Shown: piece after piece, positions 19,039 through 53,105 of the stretch
Layout: every line of letters begins with the position of its first letter
Position numbering within the stretch: position 1 is the first letter of the stretch
Origin: Armatimonadota bacterium
Lineage (GTDB): Bacteria > Armatimonadota > Fimbriimonadia > Fimbriimonadales > Fimbriimonadaceae
Direction of reading: 5' to 3'
NCBI GenBank assembly: GCA_018268395.1
Contig: JAFDWQ010000001.1
Span: 144,788 to 208,787, forward strand
DNA length: 64,000 nucleotides
Translations under genes and position numbers: made by a program
Notes under the pieces: model-generated
Told to the model about the DNA's origin: nothing
What the model saw: the letters and a program-made list of their open reading frames with translations, nothing else
Databases searched by the model: none

Positions 19039-19044
19039 TGTCCC

Positions 19045-28350: not shown

Positions 28351-28396
28351 GGTGTTCCTGTTCCTAATGATCGGTAGACCGACTGTTTTCATCGCC

Positions 28397-31315: not shown

Positions 31316-31345
31316 ATCATAGCACCCGGAGCGACTGGCTGTCAA
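31316..31345 (-). promoter_or_regulatory. Sigma70-type promoter of the pilM operon
   Basis: On the minus strand TTGACA (31345-31340) and TATGAT (31321-31316) are 18 bases apart. The -35 is consensus and the -10 is one base off. It is the best promoter in the window and separates the pilM operon from the giant-protein genes upstream. Confidence 0.85.
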
Positions 31346-31464: not shown

Positions 31465-34400
31465 TTACTGGTTCGGCCGTTTCGGCGAGAACCGGGGCGC
31501 GACCGTCTGGAAATAGACGTCCGGTTGCCCCGTCCGAGAACTCGACCAGAAGAACCAAAGGAGGCCGGGTTTGCGCCCTGCCACAGGGTCGATGTTGTTG
31601 AACGGCGAGTTCAACGGGTCCAGTGCGATCGAGAGGCCCGACTCGTTGCCCACCTGTTCGATCGGAACTGCTTGTTCGAGCAGTTCAGGGATCTGCCGGA
31701 CGGTCCACGCCTCGGTGAGCCGGCCGATAAAGCGGCCGCTTTCGTCCACCGCATCGTACGTCACCGTCACCCGTCGGTCCTCGTTCCCGGTCAGGAAGAA
31801 GACGCGGCCTGTCGCCGGGTCGAACTGGGCATAGTGCTCGACGGCCACGCCGCCGCCCCAGTTGTCGACGCGGAAGTAGGTCGCGGCCCCGTTCTGGTCC
31901 GTCTGGATCGCATTGGCCAGGACGATTCCCGGCCGGAGCGTCTGATAGAACGGCCGGGCCGCGGCCGTACCGTCGCCCGAAGTCCGAGTGTAGGCGACGA
32001 CCGTGCGGTCCCACCTGAGCGGCGAGTCCGGCTGAGCGGCGTTGACTTCGCCGACCCAGTTCTGCAGGTCGCCCAAGAGGTTGCGCTGCGGGTTGCCCGG
32101 CACGACCCGGACGCCGATGAAGCGGTCGTCATAGGTCGTGGCGACCGAGCGGTAATTGGCGCCCGTCCCCGTGCTGACGCGGACGATCGACGGCCGGTAC
32201 TTGATGTACAGCCTGGTCCCGCGGGGCAGGATCACGCCCGTCATGCGGACCGCGCCGGTCGACGATTCGAGAAGGACGCTGCCGCCGAAGCGGGAGTTGA
32301 ACTTCAAGATGCCGGACGCCTGGTCGAAGTCGCGGGTCGCCGTCTTCTGGTCCCAGATCGAGCCGGTCGCGCCGGACGGGTCCGTCGTGATGTCGATCTG
32401 GTCGAGCGACGCCTGGTCGGTCACCCATTGCAGGCCCGGAGCCCAGAACACGCCCGTCGCCGGGTCGAGCGTCAGATCGTCGATCAGAGGATCGGTGGCC
32501 GTGCCGTAAGGCAAGACCGAGTTACGGCCCGTCGGCACGCCCGTGAACAGGCTCGCCGTCAACCGGGCCATGTAGACCTCGCTGAACTTTCGGCCGCGGA
32601 CCTTGCCCGTGAAAGTCAAGTTGATCCGGCCTTGGTTCCCGTCGCGATAGCGGCGGGCGAACGCGCTCGGAGCGCCAAGGTTCTCGAAGGCGTTCCCTAG
32701 CCGCAGGCTGCCCTGCGTCCACAGGTTCGACGTGGAGTTGTAGTTGTTCCAGACGATCTGGCCGAGGCCGTTCGAATAGGTCGAGTAGAACACCGAGGCG
32801 TACGACGTGCTGCCAAGGGTCGTGTTGACCAAGCTCAGCCTGCTCTTCTTGACCGTCGGGTCGAAGGGCGACGTCAGGATCGCACCCGGATTGTAGTTGA
32901 TCGTCCCGTCGGCCGCGAACGTCATCGGCACGAGCATGATCTCGCTCAGCGGGACGGAGGTGCCCGAAGCGTCCCGCTTCGTGGCCTCGCCCAGCATCGC
33001 CATGTACTTGCCGTTGTTCCAAGACCGGCCCGTCGTCGCGGGGTACTCGAGGAAATTGAAGAACCCGCTTGTCGGGAACGTCGGCGCGCCGAAGGCGACC
33101 GAGTCGAGGTCGAGCGTCTCGCCGTTGGCCGTGTCCACCGAGAACACGTTGGCGGGCGGGTCGATCAAGAGCGTCTGCTTGTACCAGCGCGAATTGTTCT
33201 CGGCCGTCCAGGCGTTCAGGTCGTTGATCGGGCTTTCACCGAGGGAGTTCCCCAGCGTCGACCGCAAGGATCCGACGTAGATCCGCCATTTGTCCTGGCG
33301 TAGCAGGTCGGTCTCGGTGCGCTGCATCGCGTTCCAGCCCGGCGTGTTGGCGTTCTCGAGCCTGTTCGAGGCCCAGGCGACGAACACGTTGCCGTTCCCG
33401 TCGCGCATCGCGCTCGGCACGGAGTTCGACCACAGGAAGTTCCCCGTCGCGGTCGGCAGGCTTTCGACCATCGGAGCCGACTTCGTCGTGGGCAGGTTGG
33501 TCATCCGGCCCTCACGGACCGTGAACTTCAGATTCGCTCCAGGGTCGGTGTACGCTTCGTCGGTGCCCAAAGACGGGTTGTCCGCGTTCATGTCGTTACC
33601 CGTGTTGCTGTTCTCGAACGCGAACACCTTTCGGATGTACTGCCCCGAGGGAGCGCCGATCGGTGCGCTGACGCCGATCTTCGGATCGCCGGGAACGATC
33701 TGACCCGGGTTGAACAGGTAGCCGCCCGCCGTCCGCAAGTTCGCGTTCGGCCTGCTCCTGGGGTTGACGTTGTAACGCGTCCCGATCAAGTCGTTCGGCC
33801 TCGGCTTCTGAAGGATGTTCCTTCCGAGCGGGTCGAACCCTGGGCCGCTACCGACCAGCAACGACGCCGAATACCTTCGGTCGATCGACGAGTGCAGGTG
33901 GAGAGAAGCGTCCAGCCAGGCTAGTTCGTGCTGGCCGGGCATGAACAACTCGACCGGGCGGTTGCCGTTCGCGTCGAAGAAGAACTTCGCGAGCCTCAGG
34001 TCGAGCATGTTCTCGTTCCCGTCGTTCGAGACGGCGAACGGTTGGAACAGGTTGTTGTAGGCCGGGTTCCACGGGCTGAACTGCGTGTTCGGGTCCCAAG
34101 GCAGGAACGGGCCGAAACCTGCGCCTCCGTTGTAGCCGCCGCCCGAAGGAAGCGACCCCATGTCCAGGGTGGGGGTCTGGAAGTTGATCCGCTGGTCGCG
34201 GGCGACGTCCAGTCCGATCCCGAACGTGCGGAACGAGCCGACCGTCGGATCGAGCGTCGAGTTTCCGCCCTGCGGGTCGATGAACATGATCTGACTGCCG
34301 TAGTAGTCGCTCTTGCTCGAAGGCTGGTAGCGCGGCACGAGCAGGCTCATCTCGAACACGGTCGGGGTGACCCGGCGGGTCATCTGGGCTTCATAGCCCG

Positions 34401-37400
34401 TCAGCGTCCGGTAGTTGGTGGCGTTCGCCGGTGCGATGAACGGCGCGTTCAGCGAAATGCCGGACGGGTACAGCGGGTTCTGGGCCTGTCCGAACAGATT
34501 GGCCGTCATCGCCAAGCCTTCCCGTCCCACGTTGGGATAGTCAAGGCTCGTGTTCGGCACGTTGACCGGATAGTCTTCGAACCCAGGGTAGTTGACGCCG
34601 TTCTGAAGCAACGGTTGGAACACGCCGCCCGTCGTCGGATCGGTCAGGTCTTTGACCCAAGCGATGTCGCGCGGGCCGACCCGGACTCCGTCCAGGCCGC
34701 GACCCAGCAGGATCGCCATCAAGCTTCGGTCGACGACGTACAGCTGCTGGACGCCGAGCGATCCGTGACTGACGGGTTGCCCCTTGCTCCGGAGGTCAGG
34801 CCCGACCGGGCCTGCTGGCTCGCCCGCCGCCGGGTTCTGGTCCGTTCCCACGTTGCCGTTCGAGTTGTACAGGGGCCATCGCGGGTCGCCCGTGTTGACC
34901 ACGATCGTCGGATCGGGGTTCACGAGGGTCGGCAGGCACACGCTCGAGTTCACGATGCCGCTGTCGTCCAGGTACGCCAGTGCCAACGGGTTCGCGATAA
35001 AGTAGTCGGCATTGACCGGCGGGTTGAACGTGGCCGGCTTGAAGAGCCGGACGGCCGTGCCCTGATTCCGCGTTCCGGCCGAAGTCGCCCGGGCGGAGAG
35101 AAGGTTCGGGCCTGGGCCGATGCCGCCGATACCGGTCGTCATCAGAGGAATGCCCCGGAGCACGAAGCCGCGGTTCTGGGCGTCGCCCGTGTACTGCCGG
35201 ATCGGAGACTGGAAGCGCTGGGCCGTACGGCCCGGGCTGCTCATTTCGAACTCGATGTAGTAGTTCGCGGTCGAACCCGTCCCTTCCGGAAGGTCGTAGA
35301 TCAAGACGTACAGCGTCTCGCCGAAGTCGAAATGGCGCCGTTGGGCGGCCGAGTTCTGGGCGACCTGAAGGACCTCCGCCGCCGTCACCCCGACGTTCGG
35401 GTCGTCGATCTTCTGCCGCAACTGGTCGTACTGCTCGGGCGAGATCAGGATGAACTTGTTCGGGTCGATCGCGTTATCCAGCAGATCGAGGTCGGGATCG
35501 TTCTGTCCAGGATCGCGGAAGCCGGGCGGGACGCCAGGAACCATCGGAATGTCCTTCGTATCGAGGATCGAGTTGAAGGCGTAGAGGTAGCCGCTACTGT
35601 CGCCCGCATAGGCCCACGAATGGACGTTCAGACCGTTATTGAAGCCACCCGTGATGGCGGGCGACACTTGCGCCTGGCCGTCCATCGCGTAGCCCCACAC
35701 CTTGGTGAAGCCGGCCTTGTTCAAGAGGCCGTTCGCGCTCAACGCGGTCAAGCGGCCGTCGACGGTCGTCACGATGACGGCCGGGATGTCCTGCCGGATC
35801 GAGCCGATGTTGTCGTACTGCGCTGTGAACAGGAACCGGAGCGGCCCGGCAGAGCCTGCGGGCAGTTCGTTCGTCGACCACGCGACCGTTCCCGACGCGG
35901 GATCGAGGGACGCGAAAAGCCCGGCGTCGTCGGCGACGAAGAGCCGGTCGTTCCCGGTGTCGGCCGTTCCGCCCCACGTTCCCGCAGGCGGGTTCAACAT
36001 GGAGGCCGGGACCGAAATCGGCGACGACGCGCCGAACCGCGAGAAACCGCCGATGCCGGCGCCGTCTTGCGTCCAAGCCAACGTCCCGTCCCCTTCGTTC
36101 AGGGCGTACATCGTGCCCGTGGTCGCGGTCTGGTCAGGCGCGGCTCCGAAGAACACGCGTCCACCCGTGACCACCGGGGTCATCTGGACCGGACCGAGGA
36201 CCGGGTCGGTCGCCAGTGGGTACTGCCAGACGATCGAGGACTTCTTCGTGGCGAGGTTGCCCGCGGCGTCGAGCGCGATCACGCGCCCTTCTTGCGTCGG
36301 GACGATCACGATCGGGACGTTGCCGGCCGCCGTACCGAAGGACAGGGATCCCACGATCGGCTGGACGCCGGCCTGCATCGGCACGTTCGGAGCCGAAGGG
36401 TCGTAGTCGTCGGGCCAGGTCCAGCGCCTGCGCGCCGTTCCGTCACCACGACCGGACATTTCGATGCAGTACACCTTGCCGTTCTGGGATGCGACGAAAA
36501 GCAGGTCGGTGCCGCCGACGTTGGCCACGAGGGCCGAGGTCAGGTCGAACCCGGCCGCCGTTTCGGCGATCCGGTCCTTACCGTCTTCGGCAGGATCGTT
36601 GTTCGGATCGGTCGACCCTTCCGTCGGGTACGTCCAGTACACCTGGGGCGGCGCGCCGGTCGTCGGGTCGCCATGGGCGTCCGTACAGTACAGCCGGCCG
36701 TTCTCCATGGCCACGACAAGGACGTCGCGGTTGACCGGGCCACCGCCCGTCTGGACGGTCGTCGTCACTTGCAGCGGGGTCGAATCGATACCCAGATCGG
36801 CTTGACGGACGAAGCGCACGGCGTCGGCGTGGACGTCTTTACCCGCGTCGAGCGGCTCGGTGGTCTGGTTGGTGATGACGACCTGGAGCGGCTGAGCGTC
36901 GGAGTGGGCGTACCCTCCCGTCCTTTGGAACGGAACGCGGTACCAACCTCTGGGCTGGCTCTCGTCAAGGTCGAGCAGGTCGACTTGCGTCCCGCCGATC
37001 AAGACCCTCATCTGGACCTTTCTTGGGCCGTTGTTGCCCGGCATCCAGACGTCGATGAAATAGTTGGCCGCAGGCATGTTCTGCCCGAAGGTCGCTTCTT
37101 CGGTCGGGGCGCCCGAGATCGCAGGCGTCGACGCGAAGGTGGGGCCGTAGTCGTCGGCGCCTCCCGCCGATGGAAGGAAGTTGGCCGTCGCGGCGAAACC
37201 GCCGTTCAGGTTGTCGACGACGACGTGCTGGTCGGTACGGTCCTTACCCGCCGCCATGATCCAGTCGCGCTTGTCGCGACCGTAGCGGCTGAGTTCGGCG
37301 TCCGTCCCGTCGAAGGGACGGCGGGCCGGCCAACTGAAGACCTTGTTGTAGCGGGTCTGCCATGAACCTGCGACCGAGAATCCTAGCGCGTCATAGCTCG

Positions 37401-38388
37401 TCACGACGCCGAGGTTGTAGTTCCGGTCAAGGTCGCCGACGACCGCCGGTTCGCTCCGGGCCGCCGAGACCCTCCACGGAATCGACTCGGTGCCGCCTCC
37501 TGGAGGCGGAGCGTTCAGACGGCCGACGATCGGAGCCGCCGTGTAGACGCCCCGGCTCCCGCCGCCCTCGACGCCCAGGCCGACCGCGTCGGCGTAGACG
37601 AGCTGCTGGTTCAAGAGCGCCGGGTTCGCGTTCAAGGCCGGATCCAGGAACTGGCCGTTCTCGCCGACGGGCGCGGTGTTGAAGACCGTGACGGTCAATG
37701 TCGTCCCCGTCGGGGTGAACGTCAGCGTCGTCTGATCGCCGTTGTTGCCCAAGCGGACGAAATCCCCCGCATGCGTGTCGTAGTTGATGACGTCGGTGTG
37801 GTCGCCGCCCTGGGCTCCCGTCACTCGGACGACCATGTACTTCTGCGGATAGCGCAGGTCGAGGATCGTCCCGCCCCCCACGTCGGACGGGCCGACCGGA
37901 ATGTTCAGCGACAACGAATACGCCCGAGCGGTGCTCAGGTTGTTGAACTGGAACGAATAGCTCCGGGTCGATCCTGCCGCCGGATCGTCGGCGCTCGTGC
38001 CTTTGACGAGCCCGCTATAGCGGTAGATCTGCGGAACGCCCAGAGCCTTGTAGTAGTTGAAGGCGACGATTTGGCCCGGTGTCGGATCTCCCCACGACGC
38101 GTTCGGCGTGTCGAACGACGTGCCGAAGACTCCCGTCTGGTCGTTGTCCAAGTAGACTTTGGACTCGACGACGGGATCCCACCACCGGAGGAAGCCCCGG
38201 CCGAAGTCGTTGTACTGCTGGGGCGGGAAAGCCCCGGCATTGACGTCGACAGGGAGGCCCGTGCGGTTCGGGTTGGCCGAGTGCATGGGGAAGTCCTGCG
38301 CCACGGCTACGAGGGCCATGACACCGACGGCCACCACGGCCGTGCCGAGCTTTTGAAGCTTTTTAAGAATCGTCCTCTGAGTGAGCAT
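31465..38388 (-). CDS. Giant secreted PQQ-type beta-propeller protein, PilY1-like in position
   Basis: A 2307-residue protein with signal peptide MLTQRTILKKLQKLGTAVVA...AVAQ. After ~300 unassigned residues there is a golvesin/CBM-like module (~425-525; PRGWYRVPFQRTGGY, HADAVRFV). Next comes a PQQ-like propeller region (~540-950) with repeats such as VVAMENGRLYCTDAHG, VASQNGKVYCIEMSG, TQEGRVIALDAAGN and DRLFVADDAGLFASLDPASG. The remaining ~1350 residues are Asn/Thr/Gly/Pro-rich, beta-like, and contain WASNRLEN and FFWSSSRTGQPDVYF, similar to WD40/TolB-type blades. No C-terminal anchor is seen. It is last in the pilin operon, 14 bases after the 1603-aa gene. The order pilin-pilV-pilW-pilX-this mirrors pilY1 operons, suggesting a pilus-tip adhesin. 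Confidence 0.85.
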   Translation of the reverse strand: MLTQRTILKKLQKLGTAVVAVGVMALVAVAQDFPMHSANPNRTGLPVDVNAGAFPPQQYNDFGRGFLRWWDPVVESKVYLDNDQTGVFGTSFDTPNASWGDPTPGQIVAFNYYKALGVPQIYRYSGLVKGTSADDPAAGSTRSYSFQFNNLSTARAYSLSLNIPVGPSDVGGGTILDLRYPQKYMVVRVTGAQGGDHTDVINYDTHAGDFVRLGNNGDQTTLTFTPTGTTLTVTVFNTAPVGENGQFLDPALNANPALLNQQLVYADAVGLGVEGGGSRGVYTAAPIVGRLNAPPPGGGTESIPWRVSAARSEPAVVGDLDRNYNLGVVTSYDALGFSVAGSWQTRYNKVFSWPARRPFDGTDAELSRYGRDKRDWIMAAGKDRTDQHVVVDNLNGGFAATANFLPSAGGADDYGPTFASTPAISGAPTEEATFGQNMPAANYFIDVWMPGNNGPRKVQMRVLIGGTQVDLLDLDESQPRGWYRVPFQRTGGYAHSDAQPLQVVITNQTTEPLDAGKDVHADAVRFVRQADLGIDSTPLQVTTTVQTGGGPVNRDVLVVAMENGRLYCTDAHGDPTTGAPPQVYWTYPTEGSTDPNNDPAEDGKDRIAETAAGFDLTSALVANVGGTDLLFVASQNGKVYCIEMSGRGDGTARRRWTWPDDYDPSAPNVPMQAGVQPIVGSLSFGTAAGNVPIVIVPTQEGRVIALDAAGNLATKKSSIVWQYPLATDPVLGPVQMTPVVTGGRVFFGAAPDQTATTGTMYALNEGDGTLAWTQDGAGIGGFSRFGASSPISVPASMLNPPAGTWGGTADTGNDRLFVADDAGLFASLDPASGTVAWSTNELPAGSAGPLRFLFTAQYDNIGSIRQDIPAVIVTTVDGRLTALSANGLLNKAGFTKVWGYAMDGQAQVSPAITGGFNNGLNVHSWAYAGDSSGYLYAFNSILDTKDIPMVPGVPPGFRDPGQNDPDLDLLDNAIDPNKFILISPEQYDQLRQKIDDPNVGVTAAEVLQVAQNSAAQRRHFDFGETLYVLIYDLPEGTGSTANYYIEFEMSSPGRTAQRFQSPIRQYTGDAQNRGFVLRGIPLMTTGIGGIGPGPNLLSARATSAGTRNQGTAVRLFKPATFNPPVNADYFIANPLALAYLDDSGIVNSSVCLPTLVNPDPTIVVNTGDPRWPLYNSNGNVGTDQNPAAGEPAGPVGPDLRSKGQPVSHGSLGVQQLYVVDRSLMAILLGRGLDGVRVGPRDIAWVKDLTDPTTGGVFQPLLQNGVNYPGFEDYPVNVPNTSLDYPNVGREGLAMTANLFGQAQNPLYPSGISLNAPFIAPANATNYRTLTGYEAQMTRRVTPTVFEMSLLVPRYQPSSKSDYYGSQIMFIDPQGGNSTLDPTVGSFRTFGIGLDVARDQRINFQTPTLDMGSLPSGGGYNGGAGFGPFLPWDPNTQFSPWNPAYNNLFQPFAVSNDGNENMLDLRLAKFFFDANGNRPVELFMPGQHELAWLDASLHLHSSIDRRYSASLLVGSGPGFDPLGRNILQKPRPNDLIGTRYNVNPRSRPNANLRTAGGYLFNPGQIVPGDPKIGVSAPIGAPSGQYIRKVFAFENSNTGNDMNADNPSLGTDEAYTDPGANLKFTVREGRMTNLPTTKSAPMVESLPTATGNFLWSNSVPSAMRDGNGNVFVAWASNRLENANTPGWNAMQRTETDLLRQDKWRIYVGSLRSTLGNSLGESPINDLNAWTAENNSRWYKQTLLIDPPANVFSVDTANGETLDLDSVAFGAPTFPTSGFFNFLEYPATTGRSWNNGKYMAMLGEATKRDASGTSVPLSEIMLVPMTFAADGTINYNPGAILTSPFDPTVKKSRLSLVNTTLGSTSYASVFYSTYSNGLGQIVWNNYNSTSNLWTQGSLRLGNAFENLGAPSAFARRYRDGNQGRINLTFTGKVRGRKFSEVYMARLTASLFTGVPTGRNSVLPYGTATDPLIDDLTLDPATGVFWAPGLQWVTDQASLDQIDITTDPSGATGSIWDQKTATRDFDQASGILKFNSRFGGSVLLESSTGAVRMTGVILPRGTRLYIKYRPSIVRVSTGTGANYRSVATTYDDRFIGVRVVPGNPQRNLLGDLQNWVGEVNAAQPDSPLRWDRTVVAYTRTSGDGTAAARPFYQTLRPGIVLANAIQTDQNGAATYFRVDNWGGGVAVEHYAQFDPATGRVFFLTGNEDRRVTVTYDAVDESGRFIGRLTEAWTVRQIPELLEQAVPIEQVGNESGLSIALDPLNSPFNNIDPVAGRKPGLLWFFWSSSRTGQPDVYFQTVAPRFSPKRPNQ

Positions 38389-38402
38389 GGGTGTGTTGAT
38401 CC

Positions 38403-41400
38403 TTATTGCCTCGCCGCAAAGACAGGGGCGACGACGCCCCGTGCGCCTTGCACGGGCGGAAGTTCGAACTTGACGCTCAAGCGGTTGAAACCGAGGTTCC
38501 TCCTATTGAGCGCGTAGCCGGGGTCTTCGGTCTGGGTCGCCCCGTCCGCGAACGTGCCGTCGACGAGGACGACCTCGCCTTGGAACGTGGCGCCGGACAG
38601 AAGGGTCCCCGAATAGCCGTTGACGAGCAGGACTTCGCCGGAATCGAGCCGTTTCGCGTAGGTCGGCCGGAAGCCGCGCGGATTGTCGCCCAATTGAGCC
38701 TGGGTGAACGGTCCGGCTCCTCGAGGGTGCCGCATGCCGGTGTACGCCTCGATCGGCATCATCCACCGGACGACCCACGTGCCCGAATTGTCCTGGACGA
38801 GTTCGTAGACGCCCGTAGAGTCCGTGACCATGGCCGAGAGCCGCAATGCACCGGCGACGTCGACGTAACGGAGCGTGACGCTGCTGAGCCCGACGAGCTT
38901 TTGCGTCCTCTCAGGTTGGTCGACGGTCGGCCAAGAGTACGAGAAACTCCCTGAGCCCGGCGGGTTCTCGGCGAGGTACGTTCCGGCCAAGATGGCGGGC
39001 CTCTTGAACTCACGGATCACGGCCGAATTGGGGCCGTCATAAAGGACGATCCCGCCGTATCCGCTCGAACGGTCCGGATCCAGGCCGTTAGAGTCCAGGC
39101 CCAGCGACATTTTGCCCGGCTCGACGTTGCCGAAGCCGAACGCGATGACGTTGTGACGCACGCCGCCCACGTCCTGGACGACCCTGGCGATGCTGTTGTA
39201 GCTGTAATCGCGGCCCGTGAACTCCTCCGGAGTGTGCCAGTTGAGCACGCCCAGTGCGTTCACGAACTTGCCGGAACCGACCGGGTCCTCGTACTGGACC
39301 ACGCCCATGTAACGGCCCGTCGCAGGATCGAGCTGGTACCTGTCGACCAGTTCGACGATCCGGTTGTTACCGGAATCGGCGATCATCGTATGGACCCACC
39401 GCTCGAGCGGCTGAGGGTTCGAGAACGGGTTGTTGCCCGCCACCGAGCCGTCGACCAGCGTCTCCCACGACAAGACGTCCTTCGGCCTGCGGAGCTTGCG
39501 CCCTTCGCCTGCGCTCAGGCCGGCCACTCCGTTCTGGTTCGGCAGCCCGGCCGGCACATAGGTGGGGTCGACCCGGAACGACTCGATCGTCCGGATCTCC
39601 CTCGAAGCTCCGTCCGTCCTGACGACGCGGTTGTTGCCCGTATCGACGACCCAGTAGCCGTTGCCGCCCGCCGGATACATCCGGTTGGGCTCACTGAGCT
39701 GTCGGACCGAGCCTTGACCCGAGGTCGGGGTGTTACGCCCGCCGAGCACCGTCTGGTCGGTGATCCAGATCGGATTGCCCGCCGGATCGAACCGGGAGAT
39801 CCGGCCCGCGTCGACGACGAGGATGTCCGATCGGCTGAAGGCATAAAGCGTGTTCGGGCCCGTCACGGCGAGCGTGTCGTCCCCACCGCTGATGTTGCTC
39901 ACGCCGTCCTCTTCGATGGCGGCCTGCAGGATACGGATCCTGAGGTCGTCCATGTCATTGATGCCCTTGAACTGCGGCCACTTCAAGGCGGGCGCGACGC
40001 GCACGTTGTTGAAGTTGTTGCCCAGGAAGTGGACGAACTGCTGCGTCCAGGGGCGGTCCGGGTTCGGCTGCAGGAACTCGTCGTTGGCGCTGATGTTGGC
40101 GTCCATGGCGAACACCATGCCTCTGGGTGCGAACCCGTTGTTCAGGATCAAGCTCGGCAACACGCTGGCCCCACCCTGGAACAAGGTCTGGCCGCCGACG
40201 AAGGGGCCCGCGCCCGGATCGAAGCCGTTAAAGCACGTGTACCACACGAGAGGGTTCCATTTCCCTCCGGCGTACCCCGCGATGATGCGGCCGTTGTCGG
40301 ACAGGGCCTCAGGCTCGATCAGCGTGTCCGTCTGACCTCCCCGCCTGACGATCACCGGCAGACTGAAGTTGATCGAATCGCGGATCCGGCCCCGCGTCAC
40401 GTTCATCAGGCTGTTCAGCACGACGCGCGAACGCGTCGAACCACCGATCGGCTCCACCGTGAACTGGCCCTGCTGCAGGACGCTGTACGCTTCAGGCGCG
40501 TTCTTGGTGACGCTGATCGCAGGATCGGACTGGACGATCGTGAAGTTCGAATCCGTACTTTGGACCTCGAAGGTCGGAGGGCCGGTCTCGGCCTTGAACG
40601 CCATCGTGACGCCGGTCTTGACGCCCGTGAAGATCGGCTTGATCGCCGACGCCGTCAAGTAGACCGTGTCGCCTCGGAGCACCGGGCCGCTCGTGAACTG
40701 CCAAGTGTTCATTTCCTGGTTCAAGAACCCGATGAGCTGAACGATCGTGTCGTTGTCCGTCAAGACCGGACGCATCGTGATCGTGTCCGCCGCTCCCGAG
40801 GTGTTGTTCAAGGCGAACGACAGACGGTCGTAAAGTTCGAACCGTCCGACCATCGAGAAATTGCCCGGCCCTCGGTTCTCTTTGAACGTGAAGTACGATC
40901 CGCCACCGCCGTTCGCGGTGCCCCGGAACGACGTCGCGAGATAGATGTTGCCGTTCGGCCCCAGGACGGGCGATCCGATGACCTGCCGCAGGTTCCTGTT
41001 GTCGTCAGGAAACTCAAGGTTGCCTCGGACGTAGTTCTCGTACGACGGCGAAAAGGCGCCGGCGCCGGCTTGGCTCCAATCGATGGTGTAGTCGATGCGC
41101 CAACCGATGTCGTCGCCCGTACCGGCCGTCTGCTTGCCGTCCAGGTCGAACCCGGCCGCCACGACCCCGTTCAACTGCAGGACGCCGCGCGTCGTTTCAC
41201 TGACCGAAGCGTTCCCTAAGATCGTGCGCACCGTGTTCGTCGGCAACGGGTTGCCGCTCGAGTCCAACAGCGTGAACTTCAGGCCGAGGCTGTTCAACGG
41301 AGTCGCTCCACCGTGGACAAGGAGGATCGGAAGGCCGTTGTAGGACGCCCGCGTCGAGACCTGCAAGACTTGAGTGGACGCGTCGTAATCGCGGTTGATC

Positions 41401-43214: not shown

Positions 43215-46200
43215 GGGTTCACCTCGCCGAAATAAGCCAAGGTCGGGCTGACGGGCAGTCTCGGCATGGGGGGTAGCACCCATCCATATTCGTCCCGACG
43301 CACGGAGACGAAGGAGTTGCCCGACGGGTCCCAGACTCCCCCGGTGGCGAACACGGGGTCATGGACGACGGTCAAGTTCGGTAATGCGGGGACGATGTTC
43401 GGATCGAACCCCGACGTGTGCGACAGCGGGACGCGAAGGCCGGTCGATCCGATCTGCCTCGGGATCCAGCCCCACTTCATCATCCACTCGGCCTGAGCGT
43501 TGATCGGGGCCGGCATGTTCTCCGAGACGGAACCGACGAAGGAGATCTTGACGTCCAGCGGCTCGCCGAAGAACGGCACCGAAGGTGTGTTGCCGAAAAG
43601 GCTGAACCGCCTCTGGTTCGCTTCGTCGTTCGTCATGTTCGGGTACAGGCCGCCCGCGCTCCGGTCCATCCAGTTCGAACGGGTGTCCTGGGTGTTGGTG
43701 TTGAACCAGTTGCCCGGAATCACGAAGAAACTTCCCTGTTCGGCGTAGAGCGCCGCTTCGATGCGGACGTCGTGCGGTGCGACGGCGGTCCGGTTGGCCA
43801 GATAGTTCTTCATCGGGGCCCCTCCGACGCCGTTCATGCGGACTCGGAAGACGCTGGAGTCGTCGGCCCCGAGCCGGTAGTCGCCCAGATTGGCGTTCGG
43901 CGGGACGATCTGGCGGTTGACCAGATTGAACGCCGAAGTGACGACCGGGAATTCGACCGTCTCGAACTTCGGGTAGGAGTTCAACGTGGGGTTTCCGAGA
44001 CCGTAGACCGGGATGTTCCCGACGCCCGTGAAGTAGCCGGCCGCCGCGTTGAAGACTTCCGTCACTGCGCCGAACGTGACCGTCCTCGGGAAGAGGTAGG
44101 CGCCCCAACCGCCCGCAAGGGCATAGCTGTTCGGTGCCACGTCGAGCGAGACGAACGTCGGACCGTTGTCGTCGGCGCTGCTGGTCACCAAGAGGTTCGC
44201 AGAGAGCGGCGTGTTGCTACCGACCGACGCATAGTTCGTGGCGAACGGCCGCCAGGTCGTCGGGTTGTTCGGGTTGCCGCCGACCGACGCCGGGGTGTTC
44301 GGGTCCAAGAGGAACTGGGCTTCGAGCGTGATCGTCGGGTCTTCCAGTTTGAGTTCGAACGGGTTCGGCGTGTCCGCGACCAGGCTCTCGTTCTTCTCGT
44401 CCACGTTCTGTCCGGGGACGGGCGCAAAGAACATCGTCGGGTTCAAGACCGCGAAGTCCTTGGCCATCAGGGCGACGGCCGATCGCGACGGCCTCGTCAG
44501 CACGGCCCCGGTCTCGGTGACGACGCCTTTCGTCACGCTGCCCTCGACGTAGATCGAGCCCATCGAGACGACCGTGAGCTGTTGGTCGGTCGGGATGACG
44601 CCGCGGACCCGCAGATCGCCTTCGAAGAAGAGGACGCCGTTGAAAAGCTGTCCGTTGTTCCGGAACTCGTCGTCGCTCAGGCTTCCACCCGGCTGCGTCA
44701 CCAGTTGCGGGTTCTGGACGCTGTCCAGAACCATGGGCTGGAACTTGCCGCTACCGAGCGGGTACTCGACCGTCCGCACCCGGAACCGGGCTACGGAGTC
44801 GCCCGAGCTGCGGCCGTCCGGATTGCGCCAGTACGGCGACCGGCTGCGCGTGTCGCGCCGGACCTCGAAGCCGTCGGGGAGCAGTTTCAGGTACGAGGCG
44901 AGCGGGATGTAGTACGGCCCTTTCCAGCCTTGGGACGAGGCGTTGTTCGGGTTCAACCAGTCCGTCGGCAACGACTTGACCGCGCCTGAAATGATCCGTT
45001 CGTCCTCGCTCGAAGAGTTGCCGCGCTCGTTACTGTCGACATAGACGCCCGATCCGAGCCCGAACCGTCCGATGTTGCCACCGTTGACGATGCGGCCGCT
45101 GTCCCTCGTCATGTTGAGGAAGCGGTTCTGCTTGTTCTGCGGGTCGACGGTCAAGATCGATCCCGGATCCTTCCGAGGGATGCCCCGGGTGAACCCGTCG
45201 AGATCGGAGTTCCCACTCGCGTCGCGAAGGACGCTTCCGACCGTCGAGAACGCCGGCTGTTCGCTCTCCAGGCTTGGGCCTGCCAGTTGGATCGGAGTCT
45301 GGACGGTCGAGGTGTTCGGCCCGAAGTTCGAGCGCCACTGGTCGACGGCCCGGTCGTAATACGTCCGCGAAACGGACAGGAGCGACATCGTGTTCGCGGG
45401 CAGGATCTTGCCGGCGACGTTCCAAGACTCTCCGAAACTCGTGTTGACCGCAAGGTCGTGCTCGCCGAACAGCTTCAGGTCGGCGTTGCAGTACAGCGAA
45501 CCAAGGCCCGGAGCCGTCGTCCAAGCGTTCCCGCGGCCCGCGTTGGGCTCTGTGAACACGCGCCCCCAGAGTTGGCGGACGTTGACGGGGCGGACGTCGG
45601 TCGGATCGTTGTTGCCATAGGGCGCGCTGCCGTCGCCATAAAGGACGCCGACGCTGGCCTGGTCGAACGGCGTCGGGCGTCCGTTCTGCGGCGTTCCCGC
45701 GTCGGGCCATCCCAGCTCCGCGGGCCGGCCCAAGCGGTCCATGTTGTGGATGTAGCGGGCGCTCTCGAGCATGCCGAGCGACGCGAACGCCATCATCTTG
45801 CGCGTGTTGGTGAGCGTGTTGTCGACCGTCTTCATGTGGGCGATCGACGCCGTCTTGTCGGCCAAGCTCGCGTAGTTCGTGACCTTCACGTTCTCCGGAA
45901 GTTGAAGGCTGGGGTCGGTGCGCGAACCCGACCGGAGCTGCCCCGGCCGGCCCACGACCTCGATCACGAGGTAGCTGCGGGCCTTGCCCGGATCGCGGAG
46001 CTGGCCGTTCGGGTTGGCGAAAGCGTCATAGTCGAACGGCGCGTACCGCACGCGGACGAGGCTCCGGCCCCGGTCGAAGAACGCTCGGGCGTACGGGCCG
46101 TAACCGTCCGGGCCTCCCAGGTCGGGGACGTTCGCAAGGCGGGGGTCGTCGCTGAACGGCCGCGTTGGATCGGCCGCCCGCAGGTACAGCGAATCCGGAT

Positions 46201-46486
46201 CCCGACTGAAACCCTGAGCGTCGGCTTGGGGTGGCGTAGGGGCGGGCCTCCAGTCGGCTCCGAGCTGCGAGTAGCGCAACTGGTAGTGCGCATACTCGGC
46301 GCCCCCCTTTGCGAGTTCGGTCGCCAGGTTGCGCTGCCGTCCACGGGACGTGTCGGCGATGTTCCGGCTGATGATCCCGGCAAAAGCGAACCCTAGGATC
46401 ATCAGGATGCCCAGGATGATGATCGCCATCACCAGGGTCTGGCCCGACTGTCGTCTCATACTCGCGGCTCTCGTCTGTGAAGTCAT
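43211..46486 (-). CDS. PilX-like minor pilin of exceptional size
   Basis: From ATG 46486 the protein has 1091 residues. Its N-terminus (MRRQSGQTLVMAIIILGILM) carries the short basic leader and hydrophobic helix of PilX/PilX_N proteins, followed by the typical TELAKGGAEYAHYQLRY segment. The remaining ~1000 residues are soluble, beta-rich, and hold many Asn, Pro, Gly and aromatic residues (GVLFFEGDLRVRGVIPTDQ, VYVEGSVTKGV-like). PilX is normally about 170-200 residues. The stop overlaps the start of the 1603-aa gene, and the start overlaps the preceding pilin frame's end region by a few bases of spacing. It probably sits near the pilus tip. Confidence 0.82.
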   Translation of the reverse strand: MTSQTRAASMRRQSGQTLVMAIIILGILMILGFAFAGIISRNIADTSRGRQRNLATELAKGGAEYAHYQLRYSQLGADWRPAPTPPQADAQGFSRDPDSLYLRAADPTRPFSDDPRLANVPDLGGPDGYGPYARAFFDRGRSLVRVRYAPFDYDAFANPNGQLRDPGKARSYLVIEVVGRPGQLRSGSRTDPSLQLPENVKVTNYASLADKTASIAHMKTVDNTLTNTRKMMAFASLGMLESARYIHNMDRLGRPAELGWPDAGTPQNGRPTPFDQASVGVLYGDGSAPYGNNDPTDVRPVNVRQLWGRVFTEPNAGRGNAWTTAPGLGSLYCNADLKLFGEHDLAVNTSFGESWNVAGKILPANTMSLLSVSRTYYDRAVDQWRSNFGPNTSTVQTPIQLAGPSLESEQPAFSTVGSVLRDASGNSDLDGFTRGIPRKDPGSILTVDPQNKQNRFLNMTRDSGRIVNGGNIGRFGLGSGVYVDSNERGNSSSEDERIISGAVKSLPTDWLNPNNASSQGWKGPYYIPLASYLKLLPDGFEVRRDTRSRSPYWRNPDGRSSGDSVARFRVRTVEYPLGSGKFQPMVLDSVQNPQLVTQPGGSLSDDEFRNNGQLFNGVLFFEGDLRVRGVIPTDQQLTVVSMGSIYVEGSVTKGVVTETGAVLTRPSRSAVALMAKDFAVLNPTMFFAPVPGQNVDEKNESLVADTPNPFELKLEDPTITLEAQFLLDPNTPASVGGNPNNPTTWRPFATNYASVGSNTPLSANLLVTSSADDNGPTFVSLDVAPNSYALAGGWGAYLFPRTVTFGAVTEVFNAAAGYFTGVGNIPVYGLGNPTLNSYPKFETVEFPVVTSAFNLVNRQIVPPNANLGDYRLGADDSSVFRVRMNGVGGAPMKNYLANRTAVAPHDVRIEAALYAEQGSFFVIPGNWFNTNTQDTRSNWMDRSAGGLYPNMTNDEANQRRFSLFGNTPSVPFFGEPLDVKISFVGSVSENMPAPINAQAEWMMKWGWIPRQIGSTGLRVPLSHTSGFDPNIVPALPNLTVVHDPVFATGGVWDPSGNSFVSVRRDEYGWVLPPMPRLPVSPTLAYFGEVNP

Positions 46487-46499
46487 GGTCAAAAGGCTC

Positions 46500-48830
46500 T
46501 CAGCGCACAAAGTTTCGGACGGCCGCCGATCCCTTGACCGTGATCGAGGGCGGGTTCGGCAGGTTCTGGGTCTGCGGATAGTTGCGGATCGTCAGCGAGA
46601 CTTCCATCACCTGAGTCGAGTCGTAGTCGACGGCGATGACGTCGTTCGGCTCTGTGTATTGGAAGCGGTACGTCACGAAGATGTTCCCTGTCGGATGGAA
46701 CCCTGACGAGTCGGAGTAGCCGCTCGGGATCGGTTCGCCGAACCTAGAGTTCAACTCGACGTACCCGGCACGGAACTGCGGCTGGATCAGCGCCTGGACG
46801 GGCGTCTGCGGCACCGGCGTCAACGGGTCGTACGGGTTGCCGATGATCGACTGGCCCGCGAAGACCAGCGAGTAGTCGGGCTCGGGTTGGTCGACGTAGT
46901 TGATCAGGTACTGGTTCGGGCCTACGGGCCGCTGGCTCACGCGGGAGTAGCGGACGTACCGGCCGAAGTTCGGGCCGGGCCTCTGGTCCGGGCCGATCAC
47001 GGTCTCGCTGCCCGGCGTCACGAACGCGCGTCCGATCCCGCTGGCTGGATCGAGGACCGACGGCGTGCCGTCCGGTTGCGGACAGACCCGGAGGTCGATG
47101 AACCGTTTGACGTACTGGGCGCGGTCCAGGCCGGGCAACAGCGTCGGGAAGTCGTTCCACAGTTTGTTGAAGCGCCGGTTGACGGGTTGGAAGATCGGGT
47201 CCGTCCATACGCCCGTCCCCACGTCGGGGTCGTTGTTCGGCGTGTAGTCCTGCGCGGCGCCACCGTTGTAGGGGCTGACACGGACGCCCGTCCGAAGGTC
47301 GAACGGCTGTCCCGCGGCCGACTGCTGGCCCCAACTCGGCACGCGGTACTCGTAGGGCAACGTCTGGTCGGTGCCGACCTCGCGGGAATCGAAGCTGGAC
47401 AGAAGCTTGCCGTTCCGGGTGTCCGGTACCGCCGGAACGAAATTGAGCCGGGCGCCGACGTTGCCGTTCAGCGTCGCGGCGTTGACCGAGTCGGTGAACG
47501 CGAACGGGTAGACGTATCCGCCCGCGTTGACGTCCGGCCGAGGAAGGCGCCGGATGTCCAGGCAGCGCGTGACGTTGAAGATTTCGAGGCCGTCGTTCAT
47601 GTCGTCGGCCATGGTCGCCGGATCGTAGTAGAAGAGGCTGAAAACGTCGGCGCCACCGTTGTTCCACGTCCGGCCGACGATGTAGGCCGGGGTCGGGTCG
47701 TTGGGGTCCGAGCCCCACCGCGCCCTTTGGTCGCCGGCGCGGGCGCCGTTCGCGGCAAAGGTGGCGGGCCAAATGCTCGGCCACGTCCTTGTCAGGAGCG
47801 AGGACCACGCGCCGTACTGCGTCGTGAACGTCTCAGGGCCGACCTTCAGGGCATTGTTGGTCTCTTCGCCGGTCCGGACGGCGGTGGTGCCCGCCGCAGG
47901 TTCGCTGGTGACCCTCGTCGGTTGGAACCGCACGAGCGGGACGAGTTGCGGGACGTTGTTCACGTAGTACACGGCCCGAGTACGGCGGTCGTAGACGGCT
48001 TGGACCATGTCGTAGCGGCTGACTTCCGTGACGACCCTGGCTTTCTTCAGCCAGTTCAGGATCCGCAGGCCCTTGGCCTGGCCCTGAGCCGTCAGGCTTC
48101 CGTTCGCATAGTTGGCGTCGACTCCCGGAAGCAGCGTGAAGAAGGCGGGATCGTCGATGTCGTCGGCCTGGCCGTCGTTGTTCGCGTCCTGGAACAGGTC
48201 CGTGTTGACGACGTATTGCCCGTTCCTCCAGACCTTGACCTGGACTTCGGCCCGGTAGAGCACGTAGAGGTTGTCACGGGACGCGTTAAGGGACATGAGC
48301 AGGCCGTCATAAGGGTTGTTGTAGACCCCCGGCGCGACGGGTTGGCCGCCCGCACCGGTCGAAACCGGGCTGTGCAGGCCGACGAAGTACCGCGTCATCG
48401 ACATCCCGGAAGCGGCGGGAAAGTTCGGCTGCCCTTTGGGCGCCTGCAGCGTCGGGTCTTCCTTTCCCGTGTCCGGATTGATGAAGGCCCCGGACGGGCC
48501 GCGCGTCGGGTCGCCTTCGGAAGGCTTATAGGCGTCCAGCTTCGTGAACGGCAGGTCGGTGGCGACCGCCGTCCCGTCCTTGCCCGGCACGACGACGGTG
48601 CACGCGCCACGGCTGGCACTGTTATCGCGCACGGCGGCGGCGTTCTGCAGTTCGCGCTCGAGCCGGGCGATGAGCGACCGCGCCTTGTCCTGCGCGTCGG
48701 CGAACCCTTGAGCCGCCCGTGTCAGGTTGAAACCCTGGACCACAGGGATGAAGATGATCGCCATCAAGATCGCCGTGATCGCCAAGACGGTGATCAGCTC
48801 GATCAGCGTAAAGCCTTTTCGCCTTGCCAT
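46500..48830 (-). CDS. PilW-like minor pilin with very large ectodomain
   Basis: The prepilin leader MARRKG is cut before FTLIELITVLAITAIL, with Glu at mature position 5. The helix is followed by a coiled segment FADAQDKARSLIARLEREL typical of PilW/PulJ. The protein has 776 residues, while PilW/PulJ are 200-350. The large C-terminal domain is beta-rich with many Pro, Asn, Tyr and Asp residues, and I do not recognise a family. The start codon lies one base after the stop of the PilV-like gene. Confidence 0.85.
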   Translation of the reverse strand: MARRKGFTLIELITVLAITAILMAIIFIPVVQGFNLTRAAQGFADAQDKARSLIARLERELQNAAAVRDNSASRGACTVVVPGKDGTAVATDLPFTKLDAYKPSEGDPTRGPSGAFINPDTGKEDPTLQAPKGQPNFPAASGMSMTRYFVGLHSPVSTGAGGQPVAPGVYNNPYDGLLMSLNASRDNLYVLYRAEVQVKVWRNGQYVVNTDLFQDANNDGQADDIDDPAFFTLLPGVDANYANGSLTAQGQAKGLRILNWLKKARVVTEVSRYDMVQAVYDRRTRAVYYVNNVPQLVPLVRFQPTRVTSEPAAGTTAVRTGEETNNALKVGPETFTTQYGAWSSLLTRTWPSIWPATFAANGARAGDQRARWGSDPNDPTPAYIVGRTWNNGGADVFSLFYYDPATMADDMNDGLEIFNVTRCLDIRRLPRPDVNAGGYVYPFAFTDSVNAATLNGNVGARLNFVPAVPDTRNGKLLSSFDSREVGTDQTLPYEYRVPSWGQQSAAGQPFDLRTGVRVSPYNGGAAQDYTPNNDPDVGTGVWTDPIFQPVNRRFNKLWNDFPTLLPGLDRAQYVKRFIDLRVCPQPDGTPSVLDPASGIGRAFVTPGSETVIGPDQRPGPNFGRYVRYSRVSQRPVGPNQYLINYVDQPEPDYSLVFAGQSIIGNPYDPLTPVPQTPVQALIQPQFRAGYVELNSRFGEPIPSGYSDSSGFHPTGNIFVTYRFQYTEPNDVIAVDYDSTQVMEVSLTIRNYPQTQNLPNPPSITVKGSAAVRNFVR

Positions 48831-48831
48831 G

Positions 48832-50964
48832 TCAGTCGTTCCCTCCGATCTGGAGGCTTTCGTTATCCGTCTTGCGCCAACTGCGCATCCAAAACTCGAG
48901 GTCGTTGAAGTTCGCGGCCTGATCGTCGGTCAGCTTCATGGACGTGGGGTTCCACATCACGCGCACCCAGAGCGAGGCCCCTCGGACCCGGCGCACGGCA
49001 TAGCCCCGCGACCAGTCGAAGACCGCCCCGCCCGAGACCTTGTCCCGGATGTCCGCATAGGCCAGGTTCACGCCGTTCACGTTCTCGATACCGGAGAACT
49101 GGAACTCTTGGTCGTAGACAGGATACGGCTGGCCGCCCGTCGTCACCCACATTTCGCCGACGACGATCTTCTGGCCGAGGTCGTAGGGGGCGGAGTAGAT
49201 CCGGTACGGACTGCCGATCGGGTTGCCGTTCGTATCGGGCGAACCGCCGATCAAAACTTGTCCGGGAGACAGGCCTGCGGCCACGCCGTAGGCGGAGACC
49301 CGGTACTGCCGGGCGGCCTTGAACGGCTGGACGGACCACTCGTTGTGGCCCATGTAGAGCACGCGGACGTTCCGGTGAGAGACGTCGGGCAGGAGCTGCC
49401 GGGGCGTCCACGGGTTGAACACGTCGCCCGTCGGATAGCAGGCCCAGACGGACATCCCGTTGGACGCGTCGCCGTCCACGTCGCGGAACAGGATCTGGCC
49501 GTTGATCTTGTCGACCGTCCATCCGCTGTCCGGGTTCTGAGGATAGCTCGCGACCGATGCGTCGTTCGGCTGGTTGCCGAGCAGGATCGCGCCCGTGTCC
49601 ATGTCCTGGACGATGACGTCGGACGTGCCGCCGCCGCTGTAGGTGATCAGGTTCGGAACCGTCAGGCCCGTCCCGTTATACGTCGTCTGGTCCGGGTTGG
49701 CAGTGCCGAACGATTTGATGCCGTTCAGCGTCAGCTTGATCTGCCGTGGTTGGACCGTGGACCCGACCGCCGTGCTCGGAGGCACGCGGAACTCGTCGCG
49801 GATGAGCCGCCAGTCGTAGACCGTGTAATCGACCCTCGCGAGAAGGGCCTGGCTCGTGCCGTTCGGGCCGACGAACCGGGAATTGAAACCGTTGGGATTG
49901 AGAAGGACGGTGCCGAGGCAGAACCCGAGCGTGCCGAAGGTGCCCGTGCCCGCGACCCGGTACTCGTAAGGGTCGTTGCTGAACGACTGCGATCCGGGGA
50001 TCTCCTGGTACACCCGCTGGAGCCGGACCGAATCCGGGTCGGCGTACAGGAAGTTCGACGGATTGAACTGGGACCCGCCGGAATAGATGTCCGGTTGGGC
50101 GACGAGTTGGTCCACGGCGAGGATCCAGTACCGGCCCGAAGTGCGGGCGTAGGACGGCACGTTGTTCGGGTCCAAGTCGGCTTGGACGATGACGTCGTAC
50201 TGCTCCGTCCGGCCGCCGTTGTCATAGGCGAAGCTCAGGGCGATCCGGTACTTGCGGCGCACGTTGTTCGGCGCGATCCAGATCTCGTCTTTCGACGGGA
50301 GGCCGTTGTCCGGCTCGTAGGGCACGTAGTAATACTCGTTCTCGGCCCAGCGGAAGATGTTGGGGATGCTGGCGTCGTAGTTGCCGAAGCGCCGCCGATA
50401 GTCGTTGCCGTAGACCTGGAGGACGCCGTCCTCGCCGATCCCCTGCTGGGTCGGATAATAGTAGGCCGGAGCGAACGTCAGCTGCAGGACGCCGCCGAAG
50501 TCCCGTCCTGCAGGCAGTCCAGGGACGCGCCGGGGAGCAGGGACGACCGTGCTCTCGCCGATGACGCGCGAAAAGAGGTTGGCGCCGCTGACCTTCGGCC
50601 AGCTTCCGATGTTGACGCCGTCGACGATCACGTTGCCCGACTGGTCGACCTTGCCTCCCGTCGTGCCGGGAGACGGCATCAGGTCGGACGTCAACCGGCT
50701 CGAATCGATCTGGACGCGGACCCCGCCAGCCGTGTTGACGTACCGGACCGGCACGATCATCTCGGCCAACTGGTTGGAGCGCCCCTGGATGCGCTGCATC
50801 TCAGCAGTCCCGAGCTGGTTGGCGCTCGTGTTGAAAGCGGCGGTCCTGAGGATGCCGAGGCCCGGCGGGAAGACCTGCACGATGGCGAGGATCCCGACCA
50901 GGAAGACCACGATGACGACCAATAGCTCGATCATCGTCGTACCCGCGCGTCGAAGGTTTCTCAT
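48832..50964 (-). CDS. PilV-like minor pilin with very large ectodomain
   Basis: The N-terminus MRNLRRAG/TTMIELLVVIVVFLVGILA is a class III prepilin-type leader. Cleavage after Gly leaves Thr at +1 and Glu at +5, as in several PilV proteins, followed by VQVFPPGLGILRTAAFNTSA and NQLGTAEMQRIQGRSNQ. At 710 residues it is about four times a normal PilV. The ectodomain contains patterned Tyr/Asn/Val beta strands (FRWAENEYYYVPYEPDN, DVIVQDMDTGAILLG). It lies 32 bases after the PulG-like gene and one base before the PilW-like gene. Confidence 0.85.
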   Translation of the reverse strand: MRNLRRAGTTMIELLVVIVVFLVGILAIVQVFPPGLGILRTAAFNTSANQLGTAEMQRIQGRSNQLAEMIVPVRYVNTAGGVRVQIDSSRLTSDLMPSPGTTGGKVDQSGNVIVDGVNIGSWPKVSGANLFSRVIGESTVVPAPRRVPGLPAGRDFGGVLQLTFAPAYYYPTQQGIGEDGVLQVYGNDYRRRFGNYDASIPNIFRWAENEYYYVPYEPDNGLPSKDEIWIAPNNVRRKYRIALSFAYDNGGRTEQYDVIVQADLDPNNVPSYARTSGRYWILAVDQLVAQPDIYSGGSQFNPSNFLYADPDSVRLQRVYQEIPGSQSFSNDPYEYRVAGTGTFGTLGFCLGTVLLNPNGFNSRFVGPNGTSQALLARVDYTVYDWRLIRDEFRVPPSTAVGSTVQPRQIKLTLNGIKSFGTANPDQTTYNGTGLTVPNLITYSGGGTSDVIVQDMDTGAILLGNQPNDASVASYPQNPDSGWTVDKINGQILFRDVDGDASNGMSVWACYPTGDVFNPWTPRQLLPDVSHRNVRVLYMGHNEWSVQPFKAARQYRVSAYGVAAGLSPGQVLIGGSPDTNGNPIGSPYRIYSAPYDLGQKIVVGEMWVTTGGQPYPVYDQEFQFSGIENVNGVNLAYADIRDKVSGGAVFDWSRGYAVRRVRGASLWVRVMWNPTSMKLTDDQAANFNDLEFWMRSWRKTDNESLQIGGND

Positions 50965-50996
50965 GGCTTAGATCTGGCTCGGTCGACGGTCGGAGG

Positions 50997-51848
50997 TCAG
51001 GGCATCACGCGCCAGCTGTACTCTTTGACCAAGTTCGAAGCGAACGGGCGCGCCGCGCCGCCCAGGAAGAGGACGATGTCGCGGTTCGCTTTGACGAGCG
51101 ACCCGTTGTTGAAATCGCGGAAGTAACCGTTCCAAGTGATCGGCGTCGTCTCGGGCGGATCGGCGTAGCCGAGCTGGCGCGGGTCGTCGTTGGCCGAACC
51201 GTTCCCGTAGCCGCTGCCCGTGCCGATCGCGAAGTTGGTCCAGAACAAGGCGTAACGCAGTTCGTACCGTTTGACCCCGTTCGCGTCCTGGTCCTGGGCG
51301 ACGTCGTAACCGCTGAAGGTGTAAAGCTGGACCTGCTGGTTCTGGTTCGCGCACGGCACGCCGCCGTAGCAAACGGTCCCGTCGGTCGGGCCGTAAGCCT
51401 GACGGGCGCCCGCCACGTCGTCCGTCGCGTCGATCTTGCCGTCACCGTTCGTGTCCACGATCGGACGGACGCCCGCGACCTCTTTGTCCGGCCAGACGGC
51501 CGTGGTCACGTCCGAGAGGCCCGCCCGGTTGAACGCCGGCCGGAACGTATTGATCGAACCGACCCGTTTCGGATAAAGGAAGCCTTTGAGCGCGTTGGCC
51601 GGGACGATGTCCGTCCCTCCCTGTGTATAGGTCGTCACATAGCCCAGCAGCTGCGGGGGGTAGCCGCCCTGGTCGAGCTTGTAGAGCTGGAGGGCCTGGC
51701 GCAGGTTGTTCATGTTCGAGATGTCCCCGGAGCGGTACGCGCCTTCCTTCGTCTTGACGTAGACGGGGAAGATGATCGCGGCCAGGATCGCGATGATCGC
51801 GATGACGGTCAGGATCTCGATGAGGGTGAAAGCTTTCGTCTGACGCAT
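50997..51848 (-). CDS. PulG/GspG-like type II pseudopilin or pilin
   Basis: The prepilin MRQTKA/FTLIEILTVIAIIAIL has Ala, not Gly, before the cleavage site and Glu at +5. The helix runs into FPVYVKTKEGAYRSGDISNM and LRQALQLYKLDQGGYPPQL, the GspG-type alpha-C and loop pattern. It has 283 residues against ~140 for PulG, with a C-terminal part that includes DTNGDGKIDATDD, a Ca-binding-like Asp-rich stretch. It is the first pilin gene after pilD (54 bases) and may be the fibre-initiating subunit, equivalent in position to fimU. Confidence 0.88.
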   Translation of the reverse strand: MRQTKAFTLIEILTVIAIIAILAAIIFPVYVKTKEGAYRSGDISNMNNLRQALQLYKLDQGGYPPQLLGYVTTYTQGGTDIVPANALKGFLYPKRVGSINTFRPAFNRAGLSDVTTAVWPDKEVAGVRPIVDTNGDGKIDATDDVAGARQAYGPTDGTVCYGGVPCANQNQQVQLYTFSGYDVAQDQDANGVKRYELRYALFWTNFAIGTGSGYGNGSANDDPRQLGYADPPETTPITWNGYFRDFNNGSLVKANRDIVLFLGGAARPFASNLVKEYSWRVMP

Positions 51849-52964: not shown

Positions 52965-53076
52965 GCCACGCCCCTCCTTGGGCCTCGCGGAGGTTACCGC
53001 AAGCCGCCCTGACCGGATTATCGGGAGCCTGCCCTCGGACGAGGAGTCCGGAACGGTACAGACCCGGCGCGGCCCG

Positions 53077-53085: not shown

Positions 53086-53105
53086 GCCCGCGACAAGGAA
53101 GGACC

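Follow-up and report, generated by a model that had tools for sequence, protein, structure and literature searches.

Six genes on the minus strand of a 64,000-nt stretch of DNA from an Armatimonadota bacterium (Fimbriimonadaceae; GCA_018268395.1, contig JAFDWQ010000001.1, positions 144,788-208,787 of the forward strand; the whole stretch is hereafter called the window) are proposed to encode the priming and tip complex of a retractable type IV pilus (T4P). The genes are tightly spaced at 31465-51848, all within one complete T4P locus, and encode four pilins and two giant secreted proteins, here called G1 and G2. By analogy with known pili, G1, probably together with G2, would do the job of PilY1; the probability of this reading is put at about two in three. 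The PilY1/minor-pilin complex of type IVa pili (T4aP) is encoded by fimU-pilV-pilW-pilX-pilY1 (Pseudomonas, Myxococcus, Neisseria PilC). G1 and G2 may work like PilY1 because the operon place is the same, the neighbouring pilin has no Glu5, the genes overlap, and a propeller and a calcium motif are present. An earlier note on this DNA, made from its letters and open reading frames, had suggested an analogous giant tip complex. The gene order, the PilX-like pilin without Glu5, the propeller and calcium motif of G1, and the T4P machine all speak for that suggestion; the location at the tip, the contacts and the ligand, like the role of G2, are what we infer.

Priming and adhesion by T4P are understood mainly from PilY1 systems. 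Which features of such a tip are truly required? A module of near phylum-wide occurrence, with the same gene logic, a cap without Glu5 and the calcium motif, and with proteins several times larger that match no PilY1 model, would help to show this. In the little-studied phylum Armatimonadota, the cassette may represent an independent evolutionary route to pilus priming and to sticky pilus tips. It would open the fimbriae of Fimbriimonas to a first testable hypothesis, and it would assign a role to thousands of residues in each genome to which sequence searches give only the label BamB-like or DUF4159, or none at all.

Gene products of the cassette

Coordinates refer to the minus strand of the window unless stated otherwise. 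The end of pilD lies 54 bases upstream of the GspG-like gene, and the gaps along GspG, PilV, PilW, PilX, G1 and G2 are 32, 1, 13, -4 and 14 bases. The negative value marks the overlap of the pilX stop codon with the GTG start of G1, which reads GTGA. Comparison of the translated sequences indicates that the six open reading frames (ORFs) are real genes, because relatives have homologues of nearly full length, the closest sharing 60-70% identity and the most distant about 20-25%. Chance ORFs on a GC-rich strand were ruled out, as homologues at 20-25% identity retain both length and order. The description of six consecutive minus-strand genes with gaps of -4 to 32 bases was thus accurate, and all six ORFs were recovered in place.

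The pilins were assigned from their N-termini only. The GspG-like pilin (283 amino acids, aa; 50997..51848) has an N_methyl match and Glu5, and it scores best as GspG (4e-12) and weakly as GspH, with all scores under cut-offs. It is a candidate for either the base of the tip complex or the major pilin. The PilV-like pilin (710 aa; 48832..50964; TIGR02523 4.6e-5, sub-threshold) and the PilW-like pilin (776 aa; 46500..48830; N_methyl) both have Glu5 and ectodomains of no known family. The PilX-like pilin (1091 aa counted from ATG; 43211..46486) carries the type III signal G|QTLVM, lacks Glu5 and is the proposed capping pilin. Beyond the N-terminal helix, the large pilin ectodomains gave no Pfam family or PDB sequence match. 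The parallel with fimU-pilV-pilW-pilX drawn in the earlier note holds for the V, W and X types and fails for the first pilin, which is GspG-like rather than FimU. Its claim that every part is enlarged likewise applies to the PilV-, PilW- and PilX-like pilins, the GspG-like pilin being less enlarged than the others.

Loss of Glu5 has been described as a mark of PilX/GspK (PMC7541494); in the minor-pilin complex at the pilus tip, the subunit that forms the cap is without it as well (PMC10191384). The cassette shows this arrangement, with a capping-type pilin that lacks Glu5 and three other pilins that mostly have it. Among PilX-like relatives with a placeable cleavage site, Glu5 was found in 0/68, Gly at -1 in 68/68 and Gln at +1 in 66/68. 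Glu5 was present in 48/54 GspG, 52/54 PilV and 49/56 PilW relatives, where cleavage sites were placed automatically and the exceptions partly reflect site placement. A profile search gave no family match for the PilX-like pilin of the window. Its identity follows from position, signal type and weak matches to PilX_N, Verru_Chthon_A and GspK in one relative each. A strong link between PilX and either Verru_Chthon A or GspK was rejected, since these single weak matches were the only ones and none appeared in five distant PilX proteins.

G1 (1603 aa, GTG start; 38403..43214) is proposed as the functional counterpart of PilY1 by analogy. By inspection it has a Sec-type signal peptide, followed by a DUF4159-like segment near the N-terminus (19/21 aligned members) and two propeller regions. 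AlphaFold models were made for parts of G1 and G2, and the model of G1 aa 346-1545 reached pLDDT 89.2 and pTM 0.84. Propeller 1 (aa 346-1130 with insertions; 39825..42179) is predicted to be eight-bladed and of BamB/PQQ type (VIA Z 22.0, 310 residues, 2.4 A to Cake8). The C-terminal beta-rich region (aa 1131-1545; 38580..39824) has NHL-like repeats, with NHL Pfam matches in relatives and NHL domains in Foldseek, and is probably a second propeller.

Within propeller 1 lies the loop DIDGDGSAD (aa 395-403; 42006..42032), a putative calcium site with the motif Dx[DN]xDGxxD. The function of PilY1 in M. xanthus and other species requires calcium binding at this motif (PMC8833165). The motif was found at the aligned place in 59/63 G1 relatives, where the loop averages 0.83 majority residue vs 0.39 for the whole alignment. 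It occurs in 69/77 G1 genes, compared to 0.6 motifs expected by shuffling. G1 thus shares the PilY1-type features of secretion, a beta-propeller and an EF-hand-like calcium motif in a propeller loop, and its sequence is consistent with calcium binding. EF-hand-like loops were also found in the GspG-like pilin (aa 131-141) and, above shuffled expectation, in PilW (14/64 genes) and G2 (22/59 genes). The whole complex may be calcium-stabilised.

G2 (2307 aa; 31465..38388) also has a Sec-type signal peptide by inspection. A golvesin C-terminal-like domain (aa 389-528; 36805..37224) was recognised by Pfam Golvesin_C in 14/20 relatives (best 8.6e-20). PQQ/BamB propeller repeats follow (aa 628-903; 35680..36507), with PQQ_2 in 20/20 relatives and PDB matches to Cake propellers (E 5e-30) and BamB (E 6e-11). 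The C-terminal region (aa 1577-2303; 31480..33660) was modelled as a sialidase/fucolectin-type propeller (AF2 pLDDT 86.1; VIA Z 22.8, 310 residues, 3.3 A). Fold prediction therefore backs the earlier report of propellers in both giants. The idea of an enzyme-like structure gained no support beyond the sialidase-type fold; because this fold fits lectins equally well, no enzyme function is claimed for G2.

Conservation and genomic setting

In 20/20 compared genomes of the same class the cassette has an unchanged gene order and similar sizes, with median lengths of 288, 673, 750, 1043, 1582 and 2298 aa (GspG, PilV, PilW, PilX, G1, G2). The order pilD-GspG-V-W-X-G1-G2-pilMNOP-pilQ is kept in class relatives. 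In genome G098, G2 is too diverged for pairwise search, yet present as a 2133-aa ORF directly after G1. In G042 the cassette was not found; this assembly is in 100 contigs and the region was not recovered.

A non-exhaustive scan with two peptide patterns covered one genome per species in 84,980 species and yielded 77 loci, with 80 of 98 confirmed matches kept. Nearly all 77 loci carry Armatimonadota-type titles, and the few others are uninformative or resemble mislabelled bins. Among the latter are L144 (titled Methanoregulaceae archaeon) and L196 (Propionibacteriaceae bacterium), which have Armatimonadota-type cassettes and are probably mislabelled. No clear cassette outside Armatimonadota was seen among the 80 matches kept of 98; because only these were kept, the cassette may also occur in other phyla. 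GspG-PilV-PilW-PilX-G1 are consecutive in 54 loci, 47 of which also have G2. In every one of the 75 contigs readable upstream of G1, the PilX-like gene is the immediate neighbour of G1 (70 by script, 5 from the locus listing). Next to G1, G2 was recognised in 53 of 62 loci; in two others it is evident though diverged or distant, and in the remaining seven no G2 could be recognised. In one locus (L207, Zipacnadia), a secreted-looking 1779-aa ORF at 15020-20356 lies between G1 and pilM and has no G2-profile match.

Across the phylum, G1 was found in 237/291 genomes (172/194 good ones) and the PilX-like pilin in 270/291 (188/194 good ones). The proposed check of gene order in other Armatimonadota thus found an order fixed across the phylum. 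Giants without pilins in relatives had been named as telling against a tip complex. When the two search tallies were compared, G1 lacked a PilX-like match in only 5 of the 237 genomes, all of them fragmented assemblies, an outcome that favours the tip-complex idea. The simple reading of the giants as independent genes was ruled out on the same count. In the loci of family f3, the module is separate from pilD and pilM yet whole, an arrangement that speaks for a single functional unit of six genes. A literature search found no published description of the Armatimonadota cassette, subscription journals being largely outside that search.

Some genomes deviate from this pattern. In G053, a complete single-contig genome, G1 is in three pieces with intervening stop codons (G053:C1:725091-729876), reflecting either a pseudogene or a sequencing error. 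G074 (C43) has two cassettes, one of which scores the same as that of G081 (C59), possibly through bin contamination. Two 1.5-Mb genomes of the same family (G067:C12, locus L246, and G068:C19, locus L247) keep the pilB-pilT pair and lack both giants. Their PilM match is absent or weak and their PilX matches are weak, so that as a test of co-loss they are suggestive only.

The machine around the cassette is of T4aP type, with PilB, PilC, PilD, PilM, PilT and a secretin all at the locus. On one side lie pilB, encoding the extension ATPase (60581..62371; Pfam T2SSE and MshEN), pilT, encoding the retraction ATPase (59224..60519; TIGR01420, 498 bits vs a cut-off of 319), pilC, encoding the platform protein (57978..59213; Pfam T2SSF), and pilD, encoding the prepilin peptidase (51903..53096; A24_N_bact and Peptidase_A24; N-terminus uncertain). 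On the other side is pilM (30068..31282; PilM_2 5.9e-51). The conserved neighbours pilN-like (29159..30058), pilO-like (28397..29143) and pilP-like (27652..28467; start uncertain) were named by position, the first two having no Pfam match. The secretin is seemingly split, in the window as in the class relatives in which pilM-pilQ was seen, with a separate STN/N0 secretin-domain protein (26864..27595; STN 1.1e-9) preceding the pilQ secretin gene (25260..26828; Secretin 4.4e-36). A sigma70-like promoter, TTGACA-18-TATGAT with TG (31316..31345; 11/12 matches), lies just upstream of pilM, and pilM-pilQ may have their own promoter.

Between pilC and pilD, the plus strand carries a 1608-aa ORF (53076-57902) with a weak NAGLU_N match and an esterase/prolyl-oligopeptidase-like part. 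The close relative G015 has the same locus as the window; its pilB-pilT-pilC-pilD-cassette run is without the opposite-strand ORF, and pilC adjoins pilD. Elsewhere, the genome of the window has five PilT genes, three of them close together at G000:C5:251507-259207.

Proposed tip assembly and competing explanations

If the six genes encode a priming and tip complex, PilD would process the pilins and assembly would be tip-first. The PilX-like pilin, being without Glu5, would cap the stack of PilW-like, PilV-like and GspG-like pilins. G1 would be exported via its signal peptide, loaded with calcium at the Dx[DN]xDGxxD loop of propeller 1, and docked on the PilX-like pilin, as PilY1 is elsewhere. 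G2 would attach next; with its golvesin-like domain and its BamB-type and sialidase/lectin-type propellers, it would probably form a surface- or glycan-binding head. The complex would prime assembly in the PilB/PilC/PilMNOPQ machine and mediate attachment at the end of the pilus. Fimbriimonas ginsengisoli Gsoil 348 is a non-motile, fimbriae-bearing isolate whose pili have been proposed to serve attachment (PMC4072686).

Several points weigh against this proposal. The location and interaction of the tip parts are inferred, and tip parts this large must pass the secretin. The PilY1 family PF05567 gave no match in G1, G2 or their relatives in a Pfam search, and a G1 profile run against the PDB gave no PilY1 chain at E <= 1. 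A relation of G1 to PilY1 at the level of sequence was dropped, neither the Pfam nor the PDB search having found one. (Over the phylum PF05567 matched 0/291 genomes, with a control equally silent, so that this count cannot be used for PilY1 absence elsewhere.) The PilY1 domain structure 3HX6 is outside the fold matches listed for G1, a listing that cannot exclude the same fold. As neither giant is matched by a PilY1 family model, the replacement of PilY1 is to be understood as analogy and not as membership. DxDxDG is a common calcium loop, and the motif in G1 could be of convergent origin. G2 may be dispensable, since some loci are without a recognisable copy. Finally, a genome-wide search at E <= 1 gave 46 N_methyl matches, of which three fall in the cassette; since the genome encodes some 40 N_methyl proteins besides these, and five PilT, the cassette may serve another pilus.

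Could the pilins instead form a pseudopilus like that of a type II secretion system (T2SS), with G1 and G2 as cargo secreted to serve outside the cell as adhesins or as proteins active on glycans? In favour are the GspG-like first pilin and the sialidase-type fold of G2. For the T2SS tip subunit GspK, which is also without Glu5, contact with substrates has been proposed, and PilY1 has been described as analogous to the substrates of a T2SS (PMC7541494). This explanation is nevertheless rather unlikely. PilM and PilT at the locus are T4aP features, and cargo would not be expected beside pilX in every contig phylum-wide.

The giants might also be cell-surface or S-layer-type proteins that are co-expressed in the operon and stay outside the pilus. 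Bacterial secreted multi-propeller proteins are often free or envelope-bound, and in some loci no G2 homologue is recognisable. An unlikely arrangement of this kind is at odds with a six-gene module that stays intact even apart from T4P core genes, with the pilX-G1 overlap, and with the PilY1-like calcium motif. That the complex serves another filament job, either polysaccharide export of the cyanobacterial Hps kind or DNA uptake, is highly improbable: hps clusters do join minor pilins with polysaccharide genes (PMC12288463), and the PilW-like pilins of distant loci match HpsC weakly in the N-terminal helix only, but the identified neighbours are T4P core genes and aroK, and neither giant was matched by an Hps or a Com model. 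A priming and tip complex of the T4P is the reading preferred here.

Comparison with known pilus and secretion systems

Pilins enlarged by an extra ectodomain are known from the modular PilB and PilC of Streptococcus sanguinis (PMC10191384). The cassette differs in that the enlargement extends to the entire set, which is fixed throughout the phylum, with ectodomains of no family. To the cyanobacterial Hps system there is a weak N-terminal likeness (GspG to HpsB, 0.6; distant PilW to HpsC, 1.6e-7 and 4.7e-7); no match extends past the pilin helix, and no polysaccharide genes were recognised among the conserved neighbours. The Verru_Chthon cassettes A, C and D (TIGR02600, TIGR02599, TIGR02596) are also prepilin-type cassettes. 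Weak N-terminal matches to C and D were obtained, as was one to A (0.0065) in a single PilX relative; every match to these three models among the cassette pilins and their relatives was far under the curated cut-off or absent. We know of no giant propeller partners in the Verru_Chthon cassettes. The T2SS set GspH-I-J-K with GspG shares the pilin types, and GspK too is a capping subunit without Glu5. From this set the cassette differs by PilM and PilT, by giant secreted partners and by far larger ectodomains.

The parallel on which the preferred reading rests is the PilY1 system. Shared are the succession of pilV-pilW-pilX and a gene for a secreted propeller protein, a T4aP machine nearby, a capping pilin without Glu5, Dx[DN]xDGxxD in a propeller loop, and a gene overlap at pilX. 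Translational coupling has been reported for the tip clusters of M. xanthus (PMC13190605). The cassette differs by having a second giant, by the length of its pilins (about 600-1160 aa), and by a GspG-like first gene in place of FimU, propellers of BamB, NHL and sialidase type, and a DUF4159-like rather than a vWFA N-domain. It is tentatively suggested, at somewhat short of even odds, that the Armatimonadota evolved a pilus tip that does without PilY1. In this phylum-specific T4aP subtype, the place of PilY1 would be taken by two multi-propeller proteins outside the PilY1 family, one bearing the PilY1 calcium motif and the other a sialidase/lectin-type propeller, in a complex that exceeds 6000 residues.

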